Of a DNA stretch of 64,000 nucleotides, positions 37,717-42,086 are shown one piece after another. How positions within the stretch are numbered: position 1 is the stretch's first letter; each line of letters begins with the position of its first letter. The notes under the pieces were generated by a model. That model ran no database searches and was not told where the DNA came from. It saw only the letters and a list, made by a program, of their open reading frames with translations. Source of the stretch: Marinibacterium anthonyi. GTDB lineage: Bacteria > Pseudomonadota > Alphaproteobacteria > Rhodobacterales > Rhodobacteraceae. The position numbers and the translations under genes are program-made. Location of the stretch: assembly GCA_003217735.2 (NCBI GenBank), contig CP031585.1, forward strand, positions 496,001 through 560,000, written 5' to 3'.

Positions 37717-37804
37717 AGCTGGGCCAAAGGGCGAGAGGGAAATCATGCACCTTGCGCGGCGGCTCTGGCACGCTTGCAGGCATATGACATGGGGAGGAAT
37801 GACA

Positions 37805-38923
37805 ATGAAGATCGGATGTCCGAAAGAGATCAAGCCGCAGGAGTTCCGCGTGGGTCTGACACCCAACGCGGCCCTGGAACTGGCCGCGCATGGTCATGAG
37901 GTGCTGATCGAGACGGGCGCGGGGCTGGGCTCCGGGTTTTCGGACGCGGATTACATCGCGGCGGGCGCCCGGATGATCGCCACGGCCGAGGAGGTCTTTG
38001 CCGCGGCCGAGATGATCGTGAAGGTCAAGGAGCCGCAGGCGGTCGAGCGGGCGATGCTGCGCGAGGGGCAGGTGCTGTTCACATACCTCCACCTGGCGCC
38101 GGACCCGGAACAGACGCGGGACCTGCTGGCCTCGGGCTGCACGGCGATCGCGTATGAAACGGTGACGGATGCGGGGGGCGGGCTGCCGCTGTTGGCGCCG
38201 ATGTCCGAGGTGGCCGGGCGGCTGGCGCCGCAGGTGGGGGCCTGGTGCCTGCAAAAGGTCAATGGCGGACGCGGTGTGCTGATGGGCGGAATCCCCGGCG
38301 TCGGACCGGCGAAGGTCGTGGTGATCGGCGGCGGGGTGGTGGGCACCCACGCGGCGCGAGTCGCGGCCGGGATGGGGGCCGACGTGACGGTGCTGGACCG
38401 GTCGCTGCCGCGGATGCGGTATCTGGACGATGTCTTTGGCGGCGTGTTTTCCACGCGCTTCGCCAGCACGGCCCACACGGCCGAGATGGTGGCCCAGGCC
38501 GACCTGGTGATCGGCGCCGTGCTGGTGCCGGGGGCGGCGGCGCCCAAGCTGGTCAGCCGGGCGCAGCTGTCGGACATGAAGCCCGGTGCGGCGGTGGTGG
38601 ACGTGGCCATCGACCAGGGTGGGTGTTTCGAGACGTCCCGGGCGACGACGCACCAGGATCCGATCTACGAGGTGGACGGGGTCGTGCATTACTGCGTGGC
38701 GAACATGCCGGGGGCGGTGGCGCGGACGTCGACGATCGGGCTGGGGAACGCGACGCTGCCCTTCGTGCTGGCGCTGGCCGACAAGGGGTGGCGGCAGGCC
38801 TGCGAGGACGATCCGCACCTGCTGGCCGGGCTGAATGTCCATGCCGGGCGGCTGACCTATTACGCGGTGGGAAAGGCGCTGGGCATCGACGTGATCGCGC
38901 CGGCCATCGCCCTGCGGGGCTGA
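37805..38923 (+). CDS. ald: Alanine dehydrogenase
   Basis: 372 residues, NAD-dependent oxidative deamination of L-alanine to pyruvate and ammonia. MKIGCPKEIKPQEFRVGLTP holds the substrate-binding Arg, MIVKVKEPQ the catalytic Lys, and the Rossmann motif is VVVIGGGVVGTHAARVAAGMG. The LAPEP-like segment reads FTYLHLAPDPEQT with the catalytic His. ATG 37805 has a GGAGGA site; the open frame to 37745 was rejected. In taurine-using roseobacters ald recycles alanine made by taurine:pyruvate aminotransferase, so its closeness to xsc is meaningful. Confidence 0.95.
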   Translation: MKIGCPKEIKPQEFRVGLTPNAALELAAHGHEVLIETGAGLGSGFSDADYIAAGARMIATAEEVFAAAEMIVKVKEPQAVERAMLREGQVLFTYLHLAPDPEQTRDLLASGCTAIAYETVTDAGGGLPLLAPMSEVAGRLAPQVGAWCLQKVNGGRGVLMGGIPGVGPAKVVVIGGGVVGTHAARVAAGMGADVTVLDRSLPRMRYLDDVFGGVFSTRFASTAHTAEMVAQADLVIGAVLVPGAAAPKLVSRAQLSDMKPGAAVVDVAIDQGGCFETSRATTHQDPIYEVDGVVHYCVANMPGAVARTSTIGLGNATLPFVLALADKGWRQACEDDPHLLAGLNVHAGRLTYYAVGKALGIDVIAPAIALRG

Positions 38924-39341
38924 GGGGGCAATCCCTCGTGGGTCTGGCCTGTCCATGGCCGGCGGGGGAAGGCTGTCCCACGCGTGGGACATTTTCGGGG
39001 CGAGGGATTTCAATGAGTTACAGGGGCGGATTTACGATTCTTTAGGGATTGGGGGGCTTGGCGGAGAAGGATGGGATGTTGCTCGGGGTCCGGTCATTGC
39101 CTGGAGATTGGCATACCGCCAGAGGGGTTGAGGTCTGGTATGCGGCCTTTTCTGTCGTCCGTGAGTTCGCTTGGAAACAGCGCTTCCGGCCATCTGTTGC
39201 CTTTCCAACCTGGCTCTGCGAACGACCGGCCCCAGCCCATAGCTGCCTGTCACGCCCCTGCGCCGTGACGCTGCCCCGCGCGCCTCTGAAGGCAGAAAAC
39301 TAACGATTTCTGGTCGGCCGGCGAGCGCTTTCTAGCAGGCG
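38924..39341. other. Intergenic region at the left edge of the AT-richer patch
   Basis: 418 bases without a convincing gene. It holds the ald terminator palindrome at 38974-38991. From about 39060 the composition shifts and only short frames are open, none with a ribosome-binding site or domain. Looks like sequence debris beside the AAA-DUF4435 gene; no inverted repeats or target duplications mark an element boundary. Confidence 0.6.
38974..38991 (+). terminator. Palindromic terminator after ald
   Basis: TGTCCCACGCGTGGGACA is an 18-base perfect palindrome that folds into a 7-bp stem with a CGCG tetraloop, followed by TTTTC, 50 bases after the ald stop. Intrinsic terminator; as a double-stranded palindrome it could also bind a protein. 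Confidence 0.7.
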
Positions 39342-39655
39342 TCAAAGAGCTGTCACGTCGGGAAGAACCTTTCCAAGCGCGACCTTGAGCTTGTCCGCCT
39401 TGGGATCTAGCAGGGAGCGGGTAATCCAGCTTTCAAACGCACTCTTTGAGGTGTTTTTCAGTTTCTTAGCCGCCAGCGCTATTAGGGCTTTGTTGTCGAA
39501 GTTGGCCAATAACACTGGTAGATCGCATTTGCTGACCGCGTTTTCGATCCGTTCACGGGCTTCTTTAGCAACGTCAGCGACATCAAGGGCGGCGGTTCGT
39601 TCGGCGTAGATTCTGGCTAAGTCTGCTGAATCTTCAGCGTCCTTCAAGTCTATTT
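39342..39655 (-). pseudogene. C-terminal part of the AAA-DUF4435 protein, in the -1 frame
   Basis: About 103 codons open in the frame that a -1 shift at the A6 run would enter: after CTT AAA AAA the -1 reading gives ATA GAC TTG AAG and continues to the stop at 39342. There is no ATG or GTG near its beginning, only a TTG (39647) without a ribosome-binding site, so independent translation is doubtful. The predicted helical stretch (VAKEARERIENAVSKCDLPV, LANFDNKALIALAAKKLK, then LGKVLPDV) fits the missing C-terminal end of DUF4435 proteins. Either the gene is broken by a 1-base change or frameshifting restores it. Confidence 0.65.
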
Positions 39656-41014
39656 TTTAAGTGTTCTATCGATCCGCCGGCGACAGTACCGCAGTACGAC
39701 ATCCTCAATTGATCCGGGTCTGGTAACCTCCGATAGAACATCTTGAGTCAGCGAATTCAATTTTGATTTCAGTTCTTCCTCTTGATATTTCTCCTCCTGC
39801 AAGATTGCAGTGGCAATTTCCGGGAGCAAGAACAAGTTCTCAATTTCCGAGACAGGCAGCACCTCCACTCCAAGCGAAAGAAGCCGTTTCTTGTCGTCGT
39901 CATTATAGTCGTCGGCATCTACAATGCCCGAGCAGGTGATGCGCGTAAGACTCGCATTGTGCCGCATCGTTGCTACCGCATGGATAACATTCTCGCACGC
40001 ACCCCGCGGTATCACTGTCCAATCTGGATAGCAGGCTCGATAGATCGCAATGTCCAGGCTGGAGCCGGTGCCTTCCACAAACAAGATCGGCTTGCGACTA
40101 CCGAGGATCAGCGTCGCCACTTCCTCGCTGAAGCCAGTATCTTCGGGTACTTCCTCGATTTCCCATTGGCCAGGCATCTGGTAGCGGCGGATAACGAATT
40201 TTTGACCCGCTCGGGACCCTACGAAATCAAGGTCATGTGTGATAACTAGGAACGCGCAATCGGGCCGCGCCGCTTCGACTTCATCCCACAGCCTGCCAAG
40301 AATTGCACGGTGGACATGGAGTTCCGGTTCATCGAAAATTAGAACGGAATCCGGTTCGGCAACCAGAACTTGACCCAGCATGTAGAAAACAGAGCGCTCC
40401 CCATCACTCATTTCGGCAGCGCTGTACGGCGGTTGACCATCAGCGGTCGCGTTAATGTCATCTCCGGACACTCGGAGTGCGCGGTGAGGCATAATACGAT
40501 TCCAGATCGAAATAAGTACCTGGAAGCGTGTTAGCTCAGGCTTTTCGAGATTTCCGGCGTGAGCCGCATTGTGGGTTCGGAGCGCGACATTGGATTGCTC
40601 TGCGAACAGCGCCTGCACGAGAAAGTCGAAATCATTGAGAAGAAATGTCTCCGCCTTTTGACCCCATCTACTATCCGCCCGGTGTTCTGGTCCTTGCCCT
40701 TCCCTGGCATTCACGTACCCAAAGCGCAATCCAGTGCGTGCCTTCTGCTCACTGATTTTCGCGACAGTTGGGTTGAGACTTAGGGAACGATGCGCCGAGA
40801 TGCGATGGGCTTTATCGCCCCACTGGTTCTCAGCCTGCGCAGCTAGTCGAGTTTTGCCGCTTCCATTCGCTCCGACGAAGAAAGTTGATGAACCGGATTC
40901 TAGCTCAATGGCTACAGGGCTCTCAAAAAAATCAGGGACTTCGAAAGTAAAGGTCAAAGTGAGTGCTTTTCTGATATCGCCACGCTCCAAATCCTGCCTC
41001 GGTCGGAGTGACAA
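39650..41014 (-). CDS. AAA ATPase fused to DUF4435 (TOPRIM-like nuclease), PARIS/OLD-type defence protein
   Basis: 454 residues. The ABC/SMC-like ATPase has Walker A GANGSGKT (48-55), signature SDGER (203-207), Walker B VLIFDEPE (224-231) and the switch His260 in VITHDLDF. A TOPRIM-like DUF4435 domain follows from about 308: Glu314 in LFVEGTGSS and Asp366-x-Asp368 in GIVDADDYN. This is the architecture of AriA plus AriB of PARIS in one chain; related OLD nucleases are alternatives. The start is uncertain: no ATG precedes Walker A, only TTG at 41014 or 40990. The protein stops at TAG right after AAA AAA and its C-terminus continues in the -1 frame. Base composition is clearly AT-richer than neighbours, suggesting transfer. 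Target and activity unproven. Confidence 0.8.
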   Translation of the reverse strand: MSLRPRQDLERGDIRKALTLTFTFEVPDFFESPVAIELESGSSTFFVGANGSGKTRLAAQAENQWGDKAHRISAHRSLSLNPTVAKISEQKARTGLRFGYVNAREGQGPEHRADSRWGQKAETFLLNDFDFLVQALFAEQSNVALRTHNAAHAGNLEKPELTRFQVLISIWNRIMPHRALRVSGDDINATADGQPPYSAAEMSDGERSVFYMLGQVLVAEPDSVLIFDEPELHVHRAILGRLWDEVEAARPDCAFLVITHDLDFVGSRAGQKFVIRRYQMPGQWEIEEVPEDTGFSEEVATLILGSRKPILFVEGTGSSLDIAIYRACYPDWTVIPRGACENVIHAVATMRHNASLTRITCSGIVDADDYNDDDKKRLLSLGVEVLPVSEIENLFLLPEIATAILQEEKYQEEELKSKLNSLTQDVLSEVTRPGSIEDVVLRYCRRRIDRTLKK

Positions 41015-41282
41015 TACAACAATGAAATTTGGCGAAGGAGAACCCCGGAAAGGCGACTGTTGGTTCTAGGCCGAGATCACCCGCCGACATGGGAAGCCTC
41101 GCCTCAACAGCCAGGTTTGCTACCTGCGCTTCGCGGCCCCTCATGCGGTGCGCAGCGAAGATCCGCTTCCCGCCCTTCTTACTTAAGGCTGCGCGCCGGA
41201 CAGATGACTGCATCCGGCTCAAACCGGAGTTTCCCGCAACCACCCACCCCGGTTGCCCGGGGCGCGCGGGGGCGGGCCTGTC
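41015..41282. other. Non-coding spacer at the right edge of the AT-richer patch
   Basis: 268 bases between the start of the AAA-DUF4435 gene and the MscS stop. Frames are open in several directions but none has a ribosome-binding site or domain character. It must hold the promoter of the defence-like gene; no clear -35/-10 pair was found. Confidence 0.5.
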
Positions 41283-42086
41283 TCAGGCGCTTTTGACGAT
41301 CTCGACCGCGTGGGGGTAGGGGATCGAGATGCCGTTGGCGTCGAAGGCCTCTTTCACGGCCTTGGTCAGGTGGAACTTGAGGTCCCAGTAATCGGAGGCC
41401 TTGCACCACAGCCGGGCGCTGATATCGACCGAACTGTCGCCCAGGTTGGTGACCCGGGCCCAGGGCGCGGGGTCGTCGAAGACGCGGCCATCCGCCTTGG
41501 CGAGGTCAAGGATGATCTGCATCGCCCGGTCCGCGTTGTCGTCGTAATCGATGCCGAACGTCAGGTCGCAGCGGCGCGTGGTATGGTGCGAGTAATTGGT
41601 GATGATGGTGCCCCAGCACTGGCCGTTGGGCAGGATGATCTGGACATTGTCGGGGGTCACCAGTTCGGTCATGAACAGATTGAGATCGGCCACGGTGCCC
41701 GAGGTGCCGCCGATGTCGACATACTGGCCCAGCTTGTAGGGCCGGAAGAGGATCAGCATGACCCCCGCCGCCAGGTCGCCCAGCGTGCCCTGCAGCGCCA
41801 GGCCGATGGCCAGCGAGGCCGCACCCAGGACGGCGACAAGGCTGGTGGCCTGGATGCCGAAGATGCCCAGCACCGCGATGAAGACCATCAGCAGGATGCC
41901 CCACTTGATCAGGCTCGAGAAGAAGCTGGCCAGCGTCTGGTCGATGCGCGGCGTCTTGGCCAGCCGCCGCCTGACGGTGCCGCTGAGCGCGCCCGCCAGG
42001 ATCCAGCCCAGGATCAGGACGACCAGGGCCTTCACGGCATTGAGCAAAATCGGCGTGTACGCCTCGACGTTATCGAGAAGGTCCAT
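41283..42086 (-). CDS. Small-conductance mechanosensitive channel (MscS family)
   Basis: 267 residues, the size of E. coli MscS. Three transmembrane helices precede the beta domain; the pore helix is recognisable in AVLGAASLAIGLALQGTLGD and LAAGVMLILFRPYKLGQYV, with the Ala/Gly packing pattern. The cytoplasmic vestibule runs to the end (VTPDNVQIILPNGQCWGTII). Opens on osmotic downshock. Divergent from the GST gene with 158 bases between. Confidence 0.93.
   Translation of the reverse strand: MDLLDNVEAYTPILLNAVKALVVLILGWILAGALSGTVRRRLAKTPRIDQTLASFFSSLIKWGILLMVFIAVLGIFGIQATSLVAVLGAASLAIGLALQGTLGDLAAGVMLILFRPYKLGQYVDIGGTSGTVADLNLFMTELVTPDNVQIILPNGQCWGTIITNYSHHTTRRCDLTFGIDYDDNADRAMQIILDLAKADGRVFDDPAPWARVTNLGDSSVDISARLWCKASDYWDLKFHLTKAVKEAFDANGISIPYPHAVEIVKSA

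Follow-up and report, generated by a model that had tools for sequence, protein, structure and literature searches.

A broken reading frame in a PARIS-type fusion gene between ald and mscS of Marinibacterium anthonyi

In the PARIS system of Escherichia coli, a hexamer of AriA sequesters AriB until trigger proteins release it, and the released AriB cuts tRNA-Lys(UUU) and others, with one tRNA contact placed at R236 (PMC12409363). Single-gene PARIS fusions, termed AriAB, are described in PMC9122126 and PMC12409363. Pseudogenes among defence genes are discussed by the authors of PADLOC, who call such remnants worth studying (PMC9252829).

The window analysed here is a stretch of 64,000 nucleotides from the 6.8-Mb genome of Marinibacterium anthonyi (G000), in which the gene under study is single-copy. 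Its features are as follows.

38920..41282, no strand: insert of about 2.36 kb between ald and mscS, with low GC across the gene (178 bp in the sister species G002)
37745..38923, plus strand: flanking gene, which we take from its sequence to be ald, alanine dehydrogenase
41283..42086, minus strand: flanking gene, from its sequence presumably mscS, mechanosensitive channel
39650..41014, minus strand: first piece, AriA-type ATPase and Toprim core of an AriB-type effector (ORF, Pfam, PADLOC, homologues)
39342..39653, minus strand: second piece, C-terminal continuation in the other frame (AriAB model positions 469-568, identity to L063 and L122)
39650..39661, minus strand: frame break CTT AAA AAA TAG (A6 run absent from the three nearest relatives)
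40955..40957, minus strand: likely start codon TTG (ATG at the equivalent position in L063, L122 and L054)

The first open reading frame has 454 codons from the first possible TTG at 41014 to a TAG stop at 39652-39650 (41014..39650, minus strand), and the second frame (39653..39345, minus strand) has 103 codons before its stop codon at 39344-39342. Both are as given in a first-pass annotation of this DNA, which had described an ATPase and a DUF4435/TOPRIM-like domain in one chain ending at CTT AAA AAA TAG and a -1 frame open for about 103 codons. The annotation was also right that an ATG start is missing, although the homologue alignment places the start 19 codons downstream of 41014, at TTG 40957, so that the product of the first piece is likely to be about 435 residues long. 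By itself, the length of the 103-codon frame is only mildly unusual (at least as long an open frame of this type occurs in 165 of 20,000 first-order Markov sequences of equal make-up), and it is homology, not frame length, that decides the assignment of the tail. The gene lies in an AT-richer patch, as previously remarked: GC is 0.54 over the two kilobases 39001-41000 versus 0.61-0.74 in the other 62 kilobases of the window. In a promoter and terminator scan, the sole minus-strand promoter-like site falls within the gene, and an RNA-family search at the locus returned no family at gathering score.

Profile searches link both pieces to fused PARIS. The first piece matches the Pfam families AAA_21 (45.1 bits, cut-off 27, E 1.8e-11) and DUF4435 (30.6 bits, cut-off 27, E 3.6e-07), the latter over the first half of the model. 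Against the PADLOC fused AriAB model PDLC02982, the first piece covers positions 43-467 of 570 (E 5.2e-125, 416 bits) and the second piece positions 469-568 (E 2.5e-4). Since the two pieces match consecutive parts of one AriAB model, we identify the second piece as the missing C-terminus, in keeping with the initial proposal of a PARIS-type AAA-DUF4435 fusion. That proposal had the tail completing a DUF4435 protein; its place at the AriAB C-terminus stands, as does its kinship with the homologue L063 (78%), but going by the profile matches it resembles the fused-PARIS model and not the Pfam DUF4435 tail. Pfam DUF4435 likewise covers the first half only in three intact relatives. The Walker-type residues are invariant across the homologue alignment, as are E314, D366 and D368 of the first piece, which we take to be the Toprim-type catalytic residues (Glu, Asp-x-Asp). 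The locus has the ABC-type ATPase, the DUF4435/Toprim residues and the profile match over the length of fused AriAB, and its two pieces do not form one continuous chain. We classify it on these comparisons as a broken member of the PARIS fusions rather than a working one, because the frame is interrupted in the window yet continuous in relatives.

To place the break, the two pieces were kept separate and each was compared with every homologous locus. L063, from a Paracoccus MAG, is 85% identical to residues 1-454 and 78% identical to the tail, and encodes both in one frame of 571 codons. L122 (Kaistia granuli; 74% for the first piece, 69% for the tail) does so in one frame of 540 codons, and L062, a plasmid remnant of Paracoccus aminophilus, is 81% and 78% identical over its surviving part. 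In all three, the next codon opens the tail with no change of frame, and an A6 run is absent. The relatives encode Lys-Lys, Lys-Gln or Lys-Arg at the junction, in one frame, and the Psychrobacter homologue L055, despite a longer A run at this point, also reads in a single frame. Because the nearest relatives have no A6 and the longer A run of L055 is in one frame, the A6 run seems to belong to the lesion rather than to a conserved slippery site. Homologues that end naturally at the TAG were not found, with L063, L122 and L062 reading through the point, and the same break at this point is seen in none of the relatives among 113 loci. L054 (Rhizobium NXC24, 74% identical) has its own in-frame TAG 13 codons past the site in the window; the tail could perhaps be dispensable in a subgroup. 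A conserved frame continues beyond that TAG (L054 4309-4617).

Several of these loci have peculiarities of their own. In L062 (5983-6561, plasmid pAMI4), only the C-terminal part of the gene is present, beside an IS3 transposase. The intact fusion of L055 is carried by a 5.8-kb mobilizable plasmid and adjoins annotated RelB and RelE genes. L057 (3013-5235, Rhizobium BT04) is an annotated gene of 2223 bases whose C-terminus is about 200 residues longer than in the others.

Relatives are sparse. In the same-genus genomes G001 and G002, the first piece finds nothing beyond short matches of ATPase type. At E <= 1e-30, AriAB is present in 5 of the 385 genomes of the class, and at E <= 1e-20 in 7 of the 390 genomes of the order, the window's genome included in both counts. 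We collected relatives from plasmids (53 records), phages (2 records, both of one distant Oenococcus phage), GTDB contigs by an alignment scan (the best 80 of 151, giving 79 loci) and IMG/VR contigs (14 loci); a single-protein query against the genome contigs found no relative. From 53 intact homologues (alignment A3) we then built a profile and searched the stop-to-stop frames of 113 loci with it. The family is full length in one ORF at 95 of them, one is cut by a contig end, and 17 are not full length. Some entries repeat one genome (L077 equals L047, L084 equals L048, and L050 and L053 equal L129), and among the 17, L154 and L155 match a short ATPase stretch only, L102 ends near a contig end, and L058 and L059 share one break. 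With these corrections, and leaving out the window, there are 13 broken or partial records and no more than 93 distinct full ones. Along the model, the former end or break near positions 180, 185, 219, 221, 237, 277, 317, 346, 384, 388, 395, 408 and 445, two remnants start at positions 267 and 350, and the break in the window corresponds to about position 435. This scatter along the model speaks for independent losses in the family; some of the breaks may be draft-sequence errors, and we make no claim that the broken share is high. Homologues on twelve IMG/VR viral contigs (L142-L153) span their full length in a single ORF.

The surroundings of the gene point to an insertion. In the sister species G002 (L028, G002:C12), the matches to ald and mscS are 178 bp apart and the slot is empty. 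In G001 (L235, G001:C4:143900-147000), the slot holds a 552-codon ORF for an anti-phage dCTP deaminase (NCBIfam NF041025, 407.8 bits, cut-off 400; PADLOC dCTPase, E 6.1e-135), with only a 70-base remnant of ald matched. Three genomes of the genus thus have a PARIS fusion, an anti-phage dCTP deaminase and nothing at one place, which suggests that, within the genus, single defence genes turn over on a small scale at the ald-mscS slot. We limit this reading to the genus, as reading nine stretches elsewhere by eye showed no defence gene. mscS was matched in 46 of 198 genomes, and we examined 30 loci including the window's own; ald lies within 1.5 kb at 15 of the 29 others, one of them in a different arrangement. 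Nine stretches were read by eye, five with wider gaps and four without ald within 12 kb, and showed transport or metabolic genes or nothing clear. A family-wide defence hot spot was set aside, no defence gene having been seen by eye in these nine ald/mscS stretches from other genera. At 38955-39064, a repeat some 100 bases long, with the palindrome TGTCCCACGCGTGGGACA, adjoins the insert both in the window and in G001 and has many copies among the matches listed in the three genus genomes. We rejected it as a general island marker: in 400-kb stretches, low GC accompanies it at one of six places in G000 (the window's own) and at none of seven in G002. A distant search with the left flank of the insert found no plasmid. 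Another low-GC stretch, down to 0.48, lies 70-80 kb from the insert (L174-L175, G000:C1 ~604750-613500).

We consider it probable that a PARIS fusion was acquired here on its own, inserted between ald and mscS, and that its frame was later broken. The break is most likely recent and confined to this lineage, and it leaves a product that is most likely inactive. The insertion is supported by G002, which is without the insert. The decay is supported by L063, L122 and L062, in which one frame runs from the first piece into the second, and by the census, in which most loci are full length and the other breaks are scattered. A decayed defence gene had been one of two options in the first-pass annotation, and it fits nearest relatives that are unbroken in one frame. 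The intact form would have been a single-chain PARIS that joins an ATPase of the AriA type to a DUF4435/Toprim effector of the AriB type. If it works as E. coli PARIS does, the ATPase would hold the effector in check pending detection of a phage protein, and the effector, once freed, would cut host tRNA. After a break near the end of the effector domain, the main present product would be of about 435 residues and most likely inactive as a defence.

An error in the sequence or assembly, leaving the gene intact in the living strain, is an unlikely but not negligible alternative. A step of one base in a short A run is where such errors usually fall, and the first piece shows no relaxed selection. 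Against L063, dN/dS is 0.14 for the first piece and 0.29 for the tail; with L122 and L054 as outgroups, the first piece has 11 amino-acid changes on the window's lineage and 9 on that of L063, and the tail 3 versus 0, which are small numbers. With dN/dS this low, both pieces appear to have been under selection up to the split from L063, and so until recently, and the first piece, in which the lineage counts are near equal, bears no sign of long decay. To assess the assembly, we compared codon-position-filtered genes of the sister genome G002 with 400 kb of G000, and the reverse. From G002 to G000, 86 of 294 filtered genes were matched and 12 flagged; in 10 of these the stops all fell within the first 61 residues, and in the other 2 they lay further in. 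In reverse, 98 of 313 were matched and 8 flagged, 5 only within the first 30 residues and 3 further in. Frame errors are accordingly uncommon in this assembly, few of the 86 matched genes being flagged deep inside, which counts against an error at the locus, as does the breakage of other family members. A simple longest-ORF count (27 of 64 flagged; 23 of 63 in reverse) was discarded as swamped by wrong-frame ORFs in GC-rich DNA.

Decay is also much the better account than a functional truncation, that is, a short form kept for its own purpose without the C-terminal helices, which we consider very unlikely. A predicted structure of the intact protein L063 (mean pLDDT 89.6, pTM 0.58) shows the ATPase, followed by an alpha/beta core and a helical part. 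At L063 residue 435, where a predicted helix at 416-435 ends, the break cuts the chain and removes the predicted helices 444-456, 460-476, 480-486, 490-500, 505-517 and 522-531. In the model, the remaining product would keep the ATPase motifs and Toprim residues and lose six C-terminal helices. The retained residues, the unrelaxed first piece and the stop of L054 only 13 codons further on would all suit a working short form. It is opposed by the three nearest relatives, which keep the tail in frame, by the constraint on the tail itself, and by the other breaks, which are not clustered at the window's point.

Foldseek with the whole model has SMC, GajA (Gabija) and PtuA (Septu) ATPases on top and an OLD nuclease among the top rows. 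The effector half modelled alone (pLDDT 91.4, pTM 0.85) has as top solved match chain 8v46_D of the AriA-AriB complex, a weak match (E 2.4e-3, TM-scores 0.32 and 0.28; probability 0.99), and as second the C-terminal region of OLD; no match in this search reached E 0.001. Sequence searches of solved structures gave ABC ATPases only among the matches listed for the full profile and nothing below E 0.26 for the effector half; a solved PARIS chain was absent among the matches listed.

The other option of the first-pass annotation, a full-length protein made across the frames by -1 frameshifting or slippage on the Lys codons of AAA AAA TAG, has fared badly. One base back at the second AAA enters the 103-codon frame exactly, and a Lys-tRNA on that codon, beside the stop, could shift its pairing by one base in that direction. 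A T precedes the two AAA codons, which does not make a classical slippery heptamer. In folding, the 84 nt downstream of the site are no more stable than shuffled sequences (-14.7 versus -15.15 kcal/mol, z 0.17; pseudoknots aside), and a slippery site conserved among relatives was not found, their Lys-Lys, Lys-Gln or Lys-Arg junctions lying in one frame. The one-frame relatives, the scattered breaks and the lack of downstream structure lead us to reject a programmed frameshift, and we give slippage of any kind scarcely any credence. The suggestion that lysine-tRNA supply tunes the product had one point in its favour, the cutting of tRNA-Lys(UUU) by E. coli AriB (PMC12409363), and nothing else speaks for it. 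In a leaky version, which strikes us as far-fetched, the ribosome or polymerase would slip at a low rate at AAA AAA TAG, more so when Lys-tRNA is short, and yield a little full-length effector; if this were true, an effector that cuts tRNA-Lys would feed back on its own synthesis.

Under the decay reading, the gene adds to the broken copies of a known defence system, and it illustrates that what looks like a slippery site can belong to a lesion instead of signalling recoding. Of more weight than the broken gene may be the slot, with three contents in three species at one place. Among described systems, the closest is the single-gene PARIS fusion AriAB, with which the window gene shares the order of ATPase and DUF4435/Toprim domain, and from which it differs in not being one reading frame. 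E. coli PARIS consists of two genes, AriA and AriB, which are fused in the relatives of the window gene; the Toprim-type Glu and Asp-x-Asp are kept here. OLD, Gabija GajA and Septu PtuA have the same ABC-type ATPase class as the window gene, whose PADLOC scores are at most about 23 bits for PtuA and GajA versus 416 for AriAB.
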